From positions 1 through 64,000 of IMG/VR virus record IMGVR_UViG_3300044997_001199: a DNA stretch of 64,000 bases. The stretch is one strand, 5' to 3'. Positions 3,069 through 54,893 of this stretch are shown here, in pieces. The stretch's first letter is position 1; each line of letters starts with the position of its first letter. This stretch comes from a virus. The notes beneath the pieces were generated by a model, which saw nothing but the letters and a program-made list of their open reading frames with translations, was not told the origin of the DNA and ran no database searches. The translations under genes were made by a program, and so were the position numbers.

Positions 3069-3151
3069 TTGTCAACGCAAACGGCGTTTTATGCGGAAAC
3101 CACCGCGTAGTGGCTAGAACCCACATCGGACTTCTTTAAAGGAGAAAACAA

Positions 3152-3901
3152 ATGGGACGTCCTCTCAAAATTCAAAAACTTTCCACCGGCTCGGGCAACA
3201 GCGGAGAGTCAGTCGGTGTGGATCTTGGCTTTCCTAACTTTGGAAGCCTGACCAATCCGGTCTACAACACCGCTGACACCCTCAACAGCACACAGTTTCT
3301 GGGTGTGGTTGGTGGAGCCAACCCCACAGATACCCCCAGCACCACATTTCCTCGAGTGAGAGTGATTGTCAACATACAGCTGACATCAGGATCGGGTCAA
3401 GGTGTGGCCACTGGTTACATCATCCGCCAAAAAGGTGCCCACAAGTACCTGGTAGGATCAACCACTACCGTCCAGGACGAAGGCATCGTGACTGGAAATT
3501 CCTACATCATTGCCACAGTGGGCAGCACTGACTGGACACTGTTTGGCGCACCAGCTGGCTATGCAGTGGGCACAGTGTTTACAGCCACTGCAGAAGGTTC
3601 CAACAACGGCAATGGTACCTGTAACCTAGTGGGAGTCTGCGTGCTGGATGACGATACCACACCTGCTGCAGGATTGATGGCCATTACCTATACCCTGGGC
3701 GACTCCACGGCCACTACCATCAGCAAATTAACCAACAAGTGGTTGTTGAACTGGGCCGGCGGCAGTGATTATGCTGCTACCAGTGTGGTCAATAATCAAC
3801 GCTATGCGGCCAACTTCTTCACCGACGAAGGCACAGTGATCAAGTCAGGCACACCGCAAACCGCTGTGGAACTGGCCATAGTAGACAACGTCACCTCATA
3901 A
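3152..3901 (+). CDS. Virion structural protein (T4-like, probable decoration or fibre component)
   Basis: 249 aa, rich in Gly, Thr and Val, with no enzyme motif. The centre carries a segment typical of phage virion proteins: GNSYIIATVGSTDWTLFGA followed by GTVFTATAEG. The N-terminal GRPLKIQKL start is shared with head or tail-associated proteins of aquatic myoviruses. A strong AAAGGAG lies 8 nt upstream of the ATG. It is followed directly by a terminator-like hairpin, and tail-fibre genes come next, so a tail or capsid-surface location is likely. Confidence 0.6.
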   Translation: MGRPLKIQKLSTGSGNSGESVGVDLGFPNFGSLTNPVYNTADTLNSTQFLGVVGGANPTDTPSTTFPRVRVIVNIQLTSGSGQGVATGYIIRQKGAHKYLVGSTTTVQDEGIVTGNSYIIATVGSTDWTLFGAPAGYAVGTVFTATAEGSNNGNGTCNLVGVCVLDDDTTPAAGLMAITYTLGDSTATTISKLTNKWLLNWAGGSDYAATSVVNNQRYAANFFTDEGTVIKSGTPQTAVELAIVDNVTS

Positions 3902-45140: not shown

Positions 45141-45150
45141 AATTCTAGTC

Positions 45151-45179
45151 GGAGTGCAAGGATTCCAACCCTACACTCC
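45151..45179 (-). pseudogene. Acceptor/T-arm minihelix remnant of a tRNA
   Basis: GGAGTG...CACTCC encloses a degenerate T arm (TAGGG-TTGGAAT-CCTTG). The D and anticodon arms are absent. It lies exactly between tRNA-Val and tRNA-Pro. Confidence 0.55.
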
Positions 45180-45183
45180 AAAT

Positions 45184-45262
45184 TGGTCTCGATGGCAAGA
45201 TTCGAACTTGCGACATCCTGCTCCCAAAGCAGGCGGAATGAACCAGACTATCCTACACCGAT
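45184..45262 (-). tRNA. tRNA-Pro(TGG)
   Basis: 79 nt with CCA. Anticodon stem CCTGC/GCAGG around TTTGGGA; T arm GCAAG-TTCGAAT-CTTGC; acceptor ATCGGTG/CATCGAG with the first pair mismatched. Confidence 0.9.
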
Positions 45263-45342: not shown

Positions 45343-45419
45343 TGGCTCCCCAGCGTGGGCTCGAACCACGGACATTCTGATTAACAGTCAGACGCATCTA
45401 CCAACTGTGCTACTGGGGA
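45343..45419 (-). tRNA. tRNA-Asn(GTT)
   Basis: 77 nt with CCA, acceptor TCCCCAG/CTGGGGA, anticodon stem TCTGA/TCAGA around CTGTTAA, T arm CGTGG-TTCGAGC-CCACG. Canonical and well paired. Confidence 0.95.
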
Positions 45420-45420
45420 A

Positions 45421-45456
45421 TATTCTTAACTGCACTACCGCTGTACTACCTTGGAA
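45421..45456 (-). pseudogene. 5'-half tRNA remnant
   Basis: On the minus strand TTCCAAGGTAGTACAGCGGT continues as AGTGC: an acceptor-like strand and D arm without anticodon or T arm. It sits between tRNA-Thr and tRNA-Asn. Confidence 0.45.
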
Positions 45457-45462
45457 TAAAAA

Positions 45463-45564: not shown

Positions 45565-45654
45565 TGGCGGAGAGTATGAGATTCGAATCTAAGTGTCCAT
45601 TTCTGAACGACGGGTTAGCAAACCGCTGCGTTAACCACTCTCGGTCAACTGTCA
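45565..45654 (-). tRNA. tRNA-Ser(GCT)
   Basis: 90 nt with CCA and a long variable arm, as expected for serine. Anticodon loop TTGCTAA, T arm TTAGA-TTCGAAT-CTCAT-type with weak pairs, acceptor TGACAGT/ACTCTCC with two mismatches. It may be functional but is less well paired than its neighbours. Confidence 0.8.
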
Positions 45655-45664
45655 AATTTTTAAG

Positions 45665-45739
45665 TAGGGCCCCGGAGGATCGAACTCCGAACCTATCCAT
45701 TATGAGTGGATTGCTCTAGACCAATTGAGCTAGGGCCCT
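45665..45739 (-). tRNA. tRNA with CAT anticodon (Met or lysidine-dependent Ile)
   Basis: 75 nt, no encoded CCA. Acceptor AGGGCCC/GGGCCCT fully paired, so not an initiator. D arm GCTC/GAGC, anticodon stem ATCCA/TGGAT around CTCATAA, T arm CGGAG-TTCGATC-CTCCG. It is first in the array and its promoter lies at the end of the tilS gene, so an Ile(CAT) identity requiring TilS is plausible. Sequence alone does not decide. Confidence 0.9.
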
Positions 45740-45781
45740 GTGACTTTACAACTAAAATTTTTCCGCGTTCGCAATGTTGCA

Positions 45782-45811
45782 ATTATAACCAGTGTCTTTG
45801 ATTCTTGTCAA
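45782..45811 (-). promoter_or_regulatory. Strong sigma70-type promoter for the tRNA array
   Basis: On the minus strand TTGACA (45806-45811) and TATAAT (45782-45787), both perfect consensus hexamers, are separated by 18 bp. They overlap the last codons of tilS and point into the tRNA array. Confidence 0.85.
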
Positions 45812-46397
45812 GGATTTTTCTTTGCACCATGGTAGCGATTCCAGGATTTACTTTAAGAATTTCGGGCATGACGGCATGTCGGATCTGATTACGACTGTAT
45901 CGCAGATCACGATTGCTGTGGTCTTCGTACCAGGTCACAGCGTGCCGCTGAGTCCAGGCAACCAGCTGTTGTTTGGGTGTTCTTAGGAACGGTCTCACAC
46001 AGCGTCCTCGCTGATAGTTCATGATTCTGGGCTGACCATGACACGATCCCCAGATCCAAGTTTCCACGGCATCGTCGAGATGATGGGCCAAAACCACCGG
46101 TTCGGATCCTGGCAAACGGTCAAGGAATCCATAGCGTTCGTTGCGCCAGTGTTCTTCGGGACTGATGCCCGGGGGCCTCGGTTGAGAGATTTTTCCGATG
46201 GCGAGAGGTATGTCATGCTGCGAGCAGTACGTCCTGACCGTGGCCAGGCCATGCTCACTGGCCACGGTACCGTGATCAAAAAAGGCCACCTGGGTATGGT
46301 GTCGCCGACGGAGAAAGTCCAGGGCTGCCATGGAATCCAACCCGCCTGAGCAGGCGACGACAACAGTTCTAGGCAGGGCGTTCAACAACCTGATCAT
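45783..46397 (-). CDS. tilS: tRNA(Ile)-lysidine synthase, minimal form
   Basis: 204 aa from ATG 46397. The PP-loop ATPase motif ACSGGLDSM is at residues about 15-23, followed by FFDHGTVASEHG, HWRNERYGFLD, VLAHHLDDAVETW (HxxDD) and DHSNRDLRYSRNQIRHAVMPEILKVNPG, all diagnostic for TilS. It would convert C34 of a CAT-anticodon tRNA to lysidine, changing decoding from AUG to AUA. Bacterial TilS is about twice as long; here only the catalytic N-domain is present. The start follows the upstream stop by 4 bp. Confidence 0.9.
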   Translation of the reverse strand: MIRLLNALPRTVVVACSGGLDSMAALDFLRRRHHTQVAFFDHGTVASEHGLATVRTYCSQHDIPLAIGKISQPRPPGISPEEHWRNERYGFLDRLPGSEPVVLAHHLDDAVETWIWGSCHGQPRIMNYQRGRCVRPFLRTPKQQLVAWTQRHAVTWYEDHSNRDLRYSRNQIRHAVMPEILKVNPGIATMVQRKILDKNQRHWL

Positions 46398-46401
46398 GTA
46401 A

Positions 46402-46641
46402 CTACTTGCGTTCGCGCAGTTGTTGACAGTACACACAGCACCGTACTCCGGGCATGAGTCGTTGTCGAGCCTCGGGGATGTCGTCACCACATTCTTCGCA
46501 ATGAGCCAAACTGGGGAATCGTGCCTGTTCGGCTAACTGTCGCTGTACATCGGCCACGGCATTCATGCCTAGGTGTATGGCATGCAGCTGACCCATCTCA
46601 GCTTCTTCTTCGTTGTTGTAAACAAAATCATCTTTATCCAT
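46402..46641 (-). CDS. DksA/TraR-like C4 zinc-finger protein
   Basis: 79 aa from ATG 46641. Cys48, Cys51, Cys69 and Cys72 form the CEECGDDIPEARQRLMPGVRCCVYC finger of TraR/DksA proteins, preceded by a helical acidic N-terminus (DDFVYNNEEEAEMG). TraR-type proteins bind the RNA polymerase secondary channel and change promoter choice without ppGpp. An upstream in-frame ATG at 46650 overlaps the promoter -10, so 46641 is preferred, which leaves almost no leader. tilS follows 4 bp downstream. Confidence 0.85.
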   Translation of the reverse strand: MDKDDFVYNNEEEAEMGQLHAIHLGMNAVADVQRQLAEQARFPSLAHCEECGDDIPEARQRLMPGVRCCVYCQQLRERK

Positions 46642-46789: not shown

Positions 46790-47461
46790 GTGAAACTGAA
46801 CTTTCATCCCACGGACTGTGCCGGTGTTTATAGGATCACTGTGATAGATCCGCCTATGTCGGTGTCAGAGATCGTGGCACATCTTGCTGCAGATCCAGAC
46901 TGGGAACAGCCGGTCACGCATCCTGATACTGCCCATTGGGCAGTGAAATCTCTCACAGATTGGCAGACTCACGACTCTGTGTTGCAGGATATCTGTTGGC
47001 AATTGGACAGTGCCTGTGTCAAACAGCAGATACTGGATTTAGCCAGCCGCGATCAGATATTCCAAGAATTTTGGAGTTTTCCTAACCGGTCATGCCTGGA
47101 TTCCATTACCAATACCTACGCATACTTTATACAGACTCCGGCTCATTATGAAAATCATCCATGGCATGTTGATTGCAAAAATCTGTTGCTACAGGGCATG
47201 ATTTATCTTGTGGAACAGCCCAGCAACGATCAAGGCACTTGGTTTTGTAGAGATACATCGGTTCTGTACAACAGACATGACCCGGAAACCGAGCTGCGCT
47301 TGCCAGCAGCGCCCTGGCAAGGGTGGTTGTTGATCAACTCAGATCTCAGCTATCACCGTGCCTTGAATCTCACCGAGCAACCACGTTTCAGTATAAAGTT
47401 CGGACTGCAATTCAATCTCAAACGGCCACATCCGCGGATACCTGCAACACACAGTATCTAG
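46790..47461 (+). CDS. 2-oxoglutarate/Fe(II) oxygenase-like protein
   Basis: 223 aa, GTG start without Shine-Dalgarno. The C-terminal half has the jelly-roll oxygenase signature: HVD (His126, Asp128) after FIQTPAHYENHPW, a GMIYLVEQPSNDQGTWF strand pair, the distal His189 in SYHRAL and Arg199 for 2-oxoglutarate binding in PRFSI. The N-terminal 100 residues are less typical. Substrate unknown; phage members of this fold often act on nucleic acid or protein side chains, which is inference. Confidence 0.7.
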   Translation: MKLNFHPTDCAGVYRITVIDPPMSVSEIVAHLAADPDWEQPVTHPDTAHWAVKSLTDWQTHDSVLQDICWQLDSACVKQQILDLASRDQIFQEFWSFPNRSCLDSITNTYAYFIQTPAHYENHPWHVDCKNLLLQGMIYLVEQPSNDQGTWFCRDTSVLYNRHDPETELRLPAAPWQGWLLINSDLSYHRALNLTEQPRFSIKFGLQFNLKRPHPRIPATHSI

Positions 47462-47484
47462 CAAATTTCTCAAGGAAACTGTCA

Positions 47485-47850
47485 ATGTCTAGCGTTTGGG
47501 GGTACCACTTAACTCTAGATTGTCGTGATGCAAATCGAGCACTCATGATGGAACGATACAATGTTGAATGCTTCGTCAAAGAACTGGTCAGTCGAATCAA
47601 CATGGATCCAATTGGAGAGCCGTGGATCGAATATACCGCGGCCGACTGTCCAGACAAAGCCGGATTCACTGCAGTGCAGATCATCGTAGCATCCAGCATT
47701 GTTGCACATTTTGTTAACGACACTGGTGACATCTATCTTGATGTGTTCGGTTTCCGAGAATTTGACATCGACGTGGTCAAATCGGTAGTACAAGATTATT
47801 TCAAACCCAAAAACATGAGAATGAACTTTCTCACTCGTCATGCTGGTTGA
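47485..47850 (+). CDS. speD: S-adenosylmethionine decarboxylase proenzyme
   Basis: 121 aa from ATG 47485 (CAAGGAAA upstream). SVWGYHLTLDC at the N-terminus, a central IGEPWIEY strand, AVQIIVASSIVAHFVNDTGDIYLDVFGFREFD with Ser70/Ser71 as candidates for the pyruvoyl-forming self-cleavage serine and His75 near it. It would make decarboxylated AdoMet for spermidine synthesis. Polyamines help compact phage DNA. Relatives occur in cyanophages and other aquatic T4-like phages. Confidence 0.8.
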   Translation: MSSVWGYHLTLDCRDANRALMMERYNVECFVKELVSRINMDPIGEPWIEYTAADCPDKAGFTAVQIIVASSIVAHFVNDTGDIYLDVFGFREFDIDVVKSVVQDYFKPKNMRMNFLTRHAG

Positions 47851-47851
47851 T

Positions 47852-47926
47852 TGGCCCGCCTCGAAGGATTCAAACGTACGACCACTGGGTTCGAAGACCA
47901 GAGCTCTTCCACTGAGCTAAGAGCGG
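47852..47926 (-). tRNA. tRNA-Arg(TCG), weak T stem
   Basis: 75 nt including CCA. Acceptor CCGCTCT/GAGGCGG (one mismatch and two wobbles), D arm GCTC/GAGC, anticodon stem CTGGT/ACCCAG-type around CTTCGAA. The T stem GTACG/CCTTC pairs at only three of five positions. Possibly degenerate. Confidence 0.7.
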
Positions 47927-47983
47927 TGTGTGGCACGCCTGGGTAGATTCAAGCCCGCGGCCTTTCCAACGGTACGAATTACG

Positions 47984-48058
47984 AGTAGAGGGCAGGATTC
48001 AAACCTACGGTTTTAAGGATTTGCAGTCCCTTGCATTGGGCCACTCTGCCACCTCTAC
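47984..48058 (-). tRNA. tRNA-Cys(GCA)
   Basis: 75 nt, no encoded CCA (ends CTCTAC then T). Acceptor GTAGAGG/CCTCTAC, anticodon stem AGGGA/TCCTT around CTGCAAA, T arm GTAGG-TTTGAAT-CCTGC. Confidence 0.85.
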
Positions 48059-48062
48059 GTTT

Positions 48063-48120
48063 TGTCTCCGGGGGAGGAAATCGAACCCAACACCCGCATG
48101 TTTGTGCTGAGCTGGATACA
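48063..48120 (-). pseudogene. Shortened tRNA-like sequence
   Basis: 58 nt. Acceptor strands TGTATCC and GGAGACA pair at six of seven positions and a GGG-TTCGATT-TCC T arm is visible, with CAT in a would-be anticodon loop. The D arm is largely missing. Lies between tRNA-Cys and the tmRNA terminator. Confidence 0.5.
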
Positions 48121-48133
48121 AAGCTTCTAAAGA

Positions 48134-48157
48134 AAATGGCCCATCGCTGGGCCATTT
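48134..48157 (-). terminator. Terminator of the tmRNA gene
   Basis: A perfect 10-bp stem (AAATGGCCCA/TGGGCCATTT, four-base loop). On the minus strand the stem end runs into TTTTCTTT, so it terminates leftward transcription just past the tmRNA. Confidence 0.85.
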
Positions 48158-48192
48158 GGTCGTTCTGTTGCCAGGTGACCAACCCCGACAGA

Positions 48193-48237
48193 TCAAGCCG
48201 CTAGGCGGAGATCCTCAGCATAAACGTCGTCATTGGC
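48193..48237 (-). other. tmRNA tag reading frame
   Basis: Resume codon GCC at 48237-48235, stop TGA at 48195-48193, predicted tag ANDDVYAEDLRLAA. If the GCA 15 bases earlier is used instead, the tag is AKLINANDDVYAEDLRLAA. The -LAA end is the ClpXP recognition signal. Confidence 0.8.
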
Positions 48238-48325
48238 GTTTATAAGTTTTGCTAGGTTTACGACCTTCGCCTCTCGTGCTGTCTGTATCTGTACTCATTT
48301 GTCCTGTCGAAACCAAAACCGGCCC

Positions 48326-48399
48326 ATCATAAGCATACTAGATTTTATCGATACTACCGAATAATGGGAGGGCGACTCCATCTTACACCAGTATGCTTA
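48326..48399 (-). other. Intervening segment of the permuted tmRNA
   Basis: 74 nt between the CCA end and the mature 5' end. Its ends are the inverted repeat ATAAGCATACT/AGTATGCTTAT, which extends the acceptor stem (CCAT/ATGG across a bulged G) in the precursor and marks the processing sites. Confidence 0.8.
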
Positions 48400-48584
48400 T
48401 GGTGGACCGGGCGAGAGTCGAACTCGCGTCCAGAACACCTTTCCTTCAACTTCATACAGCAATAACTGTTATTTATGTATTTTTTTGAACAGTCGGCAGT
48501 CTTCTGTGCTTCTTCGTTGTACCACAGACGTCGAGTGTAGTCCTGATCGATGTCCCGAAGATACTGGTCGGTGAAATACTTCAC
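48354..48584 (-). CDS. Possible small protein overlapping the tmRNA acceptor piece
   Basis: From GTG 48584 (AAGGG upstream) the frame reads KYFTDQYLRDIDQDYTRRLWYNEEAQKTADCSKKYINN, which looks like a genuine charged helical protein. It then runs through the tmRNA acceptor piece (GREFDSRPVHH is the translated T arm) to a stop in the intervening segment. Either a real gene whose end was replaced by tmRNA sequence or chance. Confidence 0.35.
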   Translation of the reverse strand: MKYFTDQYLRDIDQDYTRRLWYNEEAQKTADCSKKYINNSYCCMKLKERCSGREFDSRPVHHKHTGVRWSRPPIIR

Positions 48585-48668
48585 ATGACCCTTGACCAAA
48601 TAAAACAAATTGTATGTGTCCTATACAATATTTAAAATCAAAGCCCAAAAACTAATGCGATATGTTAA

Positions 48669-52594: not shown

Positions 52595-54893
<2,299 letters not shown>

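Follow-up and report, generated by a model that had tools for sequence, protein, structure and literature searches.

Circularly permuted ssrA genes, which specify two-piece tmRNAs, are usually found in alphaproteobacteria, cyanobacteria and some betaproteobacteria. Phage examples have also been described: the 2022 report on the Methylophilales phage Melnitz presented a two-piece tmRNA and counted 133 unique phage tmRNAs, 53 of them two-piece structures (PMC9004378). Counting all forms, 79 phage sequences are listed in a tmRNA database (PMC11915505), a tmRNA is also present in the Sinorhizobium jumbo phage AP-J-162 (PMC11242549), and both tmRNA and SmpB have been described in huge phages (PMC7162821). 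We analyzed a stretch of 64,000 nucleotides from an IMG/VR virus record (hereafter the window), and judge from its sequence that the phage gene at positions 48131–48519 of the minus strand is a real, intact and well-conserved circularly permuted ssrA. An earlier note on this DNA had pointed out such a gene in a phage; as a kind it is no surprise, since it was published in 2022 (PMC9004378) and is common in IMG/VR, where a pattern scan returned at least 120 stretches. The novelty is modest, and consists of a beta-type permuted tmRNA with a 14-residue tag in a T4-like lineage.

The ssrA of Melnitz is likewise a complete permuted gene in a large T4-like myophage, and similar roles have been proposed for it; however, it belongs to the alphaproteobacterial type and has a 3' domain with a glutamine riboswitch (PMC9004378), whereas the window gene is of the beta type, has no adjoining riboswitch match in Rfam, and adjoins tRNAs and TilS, which we count as a further difference. 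The betaproteobacterial tmRNAs of Rfam family RF01850, such as that of Advenella, resemble the window gene in the order of the pieces, in the tRNA-like domain, and in an intervening hairpin that ends 3–4 nt before G1, but the window gene is borne by a phage and has its 14-residue tag in place of ANDESYALAA.

Identity and anatomy of the gene

Two covariance models match the locus over their full length in the Rfam search, tmRNA_permuted (RF04321) with 123.1 bits against a cut-off of 47 (model positions 1–213, window 48193–48461) and beta_tmRNA (RF01850) with 121.9 bits against a cut-off of 84 (48131–48519). ARAGORN calls a permuted tmRNA (tmRNA*) at 48102–48492, with the 14-residue tag ANDDVYAEDLRLAA. 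The proposal of the earlier note, a phage-encoded circularly permuted two-piece tmRNA at 48158–48480 that a search with permuted covariance models should recover, is therefore borne out, and its coordinates fit within the RF01850 bounds. The alpha permuted tmRNA model reaches 57.5 bits on the same locus, and since RF01850 reaches 121.9 bits there, we assign the gene to the beta type. The alpha type, suggested by the likeness of the tag to ANDNYAEARLAA of alpha-type permuted genes, was ruled out by that lower score. The covariance-model scores also rule out a chance origin of the match, as do the shuffles: when the whole window was dinucleotide-shuffled 60 times, ARAGORN made a single tmRNA call, whose tag was not of the AND...AA type. 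The RNA fold of the precursor has a z of -3.0 relative to shuffles.

Read along the minus strand, on which all of the following features lie, the gene proceeds from an acceptor piece through a 74-nt intervening sequence to a 5' piece with the tag frame. The acceptor piece (48400–48461, the 5' end being approximate; placed from the sequence and the RF04321 alignment) contains the T arm (48427–48411), the 3' strand of the acceptor stem, CCGGTCC (48404–48410, with U70 at 48406, supported by pairing in homologues), and ACCA (48403–48400), that is, the discriminator A and an encoded CCA. The intervening sequence (48326–48399) has ends that fold into a 12-bp hairpin (48399–48388 with 48341–48330), and its excision from the precursor is expected. 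The 5', mRNA-like piece (48193–48325) was delimited from the sequence, ARAGORN, Rfam, and an alignment with the viral relatives L035, L137, and L138; it starts with the 5' acceptor strand GGGCCGG (48319–48325, with G3 at 48323, also seen in homologues), continues with the conserved D region TTTTGGTTTCGACAGG (48318–48303), and extends to the stop of the tag reading frame (48193–48237, GCC...TGA), which ARAGORN and the tags of relatives support. All seven positions of the acceptor stem are paired, six of them as Watson–Crick pairs and one as G3-U70, the established alanine identity pair. Thus, the two 7-nt strands that the earlier note had described, 74 nt apart in reversed order and fully pairing, are present in the sequence, as are the D region and the LAA-stop tag frame that it had placed in the 5' half.

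Past the tag frame lies a terminator-like hairpin read from the sequence, AAATGGCCCA-GCGA-TGGGCCATTT (48129–48157, minus strand; stem 48157–48134, then TCTTT), and the transcript may reach from about 48131, at this terminator, to about 48519. The hairpin is not among the hits of a consensus terminator scan, which needs at least five T in the eight bases past the stem, and a promoter scan at the tmRNA gave nothing above chance. A small ORF directly upstream (48354–48608, minus strand) runs into the tmRNA and has no match in Pfam or PHROGs; its first part, FYLVKGHxKYF...DYTRRLWYNEEA, has a conserved counterpart in the viral contig L035, where the related ORF stops inside the start of the tmRNA.

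Genomic setting and dependence on the host

The source record is a virus contig of 215,330 bases with a GC content of 49.5% and 14 tRNA genes in two clusters. Genes in the window specify a large terminase of the T4 type, together with tail sheath, tail tube, UvsX, and a single-strand binding protein. The closest terminases among isolates are those of PA5oct-like Pseudomonas phages (53%), Sinorhizobium phage Phosso (50%), and Agrobacterium phage Atu_ph07 (54% over 79% of the query). Downstream of the tmRNA on the same strand are tRNA-Cys(GCA) and tRNA-Arg(TCG) (47852–48058; ARAGORN, and RF00005 with 56.2 and 37.1 bits), followed by a 235-residue TilS with the catalytic N domain (45783–46490; PF01171 with 109.4 bits, TIGR02432 with 110.4 bits against a cut-off of 93.6). 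These searches uphold the earlier description of a tmRNA beside tRNAs and TilS in a T4-like genome. A tRNA with the anticodon CAU adjoins the short TilS (together 45664–46490, minus strand), a pairing also seen in the viral contig L147, and this tRNA may be a tRNA-Ile2, which needs lysidine, rather than a tRNA-Met.

Other features of the window deserve a brief record. A probable tRNA-Ser(GCT) with a long variable arm (45567–45653, minus strand) was missed by ARAGORN and Rfam, as were tRNA-like stretches that are without some arms and lie between the tRNA genes (48055–48122, 47927–47985, 45141–45186, and 45415–45462, minus strand); the latter are possibly decayed tRNAs. An S-adenosylmethionine decarboxylase-like gene (47323–47850, plus strand; PF02675 with 47.9 bits) adjoins the tRNA/tmRNA cluster. 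A freshwater-2 RNA motif (RF02980, 79.1 bits against a cut-off of 49.9) is found at 3073–3154 on the plus strand, upstream of an ORF at 3152–3901, and a protein encoded at 52595–54619 on the minus strand contains FG-GAP repeats and RTX-type calcium-binding repeats.

What would favor an assembly artefact, in which a bacterial ssrA segment was joined to a phage contig, is that the DNA comes from a virus contig in a sequence collection and not from a known cultured phage. However, the whole region, including the tmRNA, the tRNAs, and TilS, recurs at 99.98% identity in a second IMG/VR contig, 12,069 bases long, and the viral contig L035 has both a related tmRNA and the related upstream small ORF, so that we regard such a join as extremely improbable. 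Host contamination, too, was rejected as very improbable, in view of this second contig with the same arrangement, the phage genes on both sides of the tmRNA, and the tmRNA relatives in related viral contigs; the misgiving that the earlier note had raised about contamination or mis-assembly falls away on the same evidence.

It could also be argued that a host ssrA was captured recently and is carried without function, as a passenger or a decaying copy. The truncated tRNA-like stretches nearby would fit this, as would the frequent integration of mobile elements at ssrA (PMC11915505), but all parts of the tmRNA are intact, and across the viral homologues among the matches listed the acceptor pairs covary and G3-U70 is kept. 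Nor did a search of 399 genomes from the phylum turn up a close bacterial copy: its best DNA hits span 27–44 nt and fall mostly in the T arm, except for a single 72% hit over 86 nt, in a Herminiimonas bin. We therefore consider a functionless copy quite unlikely. DNA similarity did not identify the host, the bacterial matches being short and mostly pieces of the T arm.

The reading we prefer, at good though not full confidence and from sequence evidence, is that the intact beta-type permuted ssrA probably serves as an accessory translation gene of a T4-like phage in host-assisted ribosome rescue. One precursor would be transcribed during infection, and the tRNA-processing enzymes of the host (RNase P at G1, 3' nucleases at CCA) would excise the intervening loop, leaving two RNAs that would stay together by pairing. 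The acceptor piece would be charged with alanine by the host AlaRS, and host SmpB would deliver the charged tmRNA to ribosomes stalled on broken mRNAs, where ANDDVYAEDLRLAA would be added to the stalled chain and the tagged chain degraded by host proteases (ClpXP or similar). The phage would benefit from free ribosomes and from clearance of truncated proteins while the levels of host mRNA, and perhaps of host ssrA transcripts, fall. Like the tmRNAs of huge phages, this one stands within a phage translation gene set; unlike in huge phages, among which SmpB is reported (PMC7162821), a search for SmpB (PF01668) gave no match in the 215,330-base record, although, if the record is incomplete, an SmpB gene could have been left out of it. 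Because of this absence, any function of the tmRNA would use the SmpB of the host. The earlier suggestion that the phage would have a ribosome-rescue system of its own thus holds for the tmRNA, but not for a complete system.

Viral relatives and isolated phages

Permuted tmRNAs are common in the environmental viruses of IMG/VR, and ARAGORN finds one in nearly all of the matches listed from the pattern scan. The tally is approximate, since the contigs may include some prophages or some with flanking host DNA, and a small number of ARAGORN calls (L128, L129), whose tags are odd, are open to doubt. Among the matches listed, 109 distinct viral homologues could be compared: all seven acceptor positions are paired in 92, the pairs at positions 4–6 are swapped on both sides, and G3-U70 is kept in 107, a count for which U70 was fixed by the search pattern while G3 was free. 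The ends of the intervening sequence form 10.1 pairs on average in these 109 sequences versus 4.2 in shuffles; the corresponding stem averages 10.5 pairs, at the same offset, in 12 beta-type bacterial loci that include repeat fetches of one gene.

The nearest tmRNAs among the matches listed are those of L035 (tag ANDDVYAEDLALAA), L137 (ANDAFYNEDLRLAA), and L138 (ANDAFYGEELRLAA), which group with the window tmRNA with supports of 0.93, 0.82, and 0.98 in a short alignment, and the L035 contig has several proteins in common with this phage. Two contigs with TilS relatives, L147 and L148, have a permuted tmRNA upstream of TilS, in these cases of the alpha type. Among terminase relatives the gene is patchy: one of 47 records has a tmRNA match over the cut-off (G037, 317 kb), and a permuted tmRNA was also found in the further terminase relatives G073, G092, G083, and G055. 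As most of the large-terminase relatives searched show no match above the cut-off, this lineage seems able to do without the gene, but their records may be fragments and the absence is consequently weak evidence.

RF04321 exceeds its cut-off in three isolated phages, Alcaligenes phage vB_Af_QDWS595 (111 bits), Sinorhizobium phage Phosso (113 bits), and Tunturiibacter phage Tunturi_5 (86.4 bits), and does not in the genomes of PA5oct and Atu_ph07. A blastn search of phage records with the tmRNA gave T-arm matches only, which led to two isolates with a permuted tmRNA. The annotations of QDWS595 and Tunturi_5 show no RNA feature at the tmRNA site, and it seems that permuted tmRNAs went unnoticed in at least two isolate records. 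The tmRNA of QDWS595 is of the beta type, like the window gene, with the tag ANDNVYAAAA, whereas that of Phosso is of the alpha type. The host of Tunturi_5, an acidobacterium, falls outside the three usual lineages of permuted tmRNAs. Thus, alpha-like and beta-like permuted tmRNAs occur in different phages, isolates included. Separately, a Herminiimonas MAG (L230 2698–3057, L241) has a permuted tmRNA with the predicted tag ANDANYLVQVYG together with a standard tmRNA with the tag ANDNSYALAA, and may be a mixed bin.

The tag and what it may mean

Among the matches listed, 53 of the 74 distinct viral tags end in LAA, and those of the nearest viral relatives follow the extended pattern ANDxxYxEDLxLAA or come close to it. 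The tag frames of the window tmRNA and of L035 are separated by three synonymous codon changes and one residue change (R to A), and the flanks diverge more; because the differences are of this kind, the comparison suggests, on few sites, that the tag is under selection. The permuted genes sampled in Advenella's family have tags of 10 residues, such as ANDESYALAA and ANDENFALAA. Could the longer tag then serve to redirect tagging, with the phage RNA competing with host tmRNA for SmpB and tagged proteins being degraded more slowly, more quickly, or by a different route, to the advantage of the phage? The 14 residues against 10, and an extended pattern common to the nearest relatives, speak for it; however, the tag still begins with AND... 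and ends in LAA, as degradation tags typically do, and loci matched by the alpha model also have tags of 12–13 residues, such as ANDNYAEARLAA, and we consider redirected tagging unlikely. Slightly more doubtful still is the idea that the viral clade with ANDxxYxEDLxLAA has a phage-specific tag that would send proteins stalled during infection to a fate unlike that conferred by the host tag.

The window tmRNA, for which ribosome rescue with host help is our preferred role, is a clean and well-supported case of a virus-borne two-piece ribosome-rescue RNA. The extended tag of its small viral clade is the sole aspect that could make it more than an added example of the published phage tmRNAs. Together with its many relatives in IMG/VR, the gene provides a comparative set for asking: is phage tmRNA kept for ribosome rescue or for altered protein tagging?
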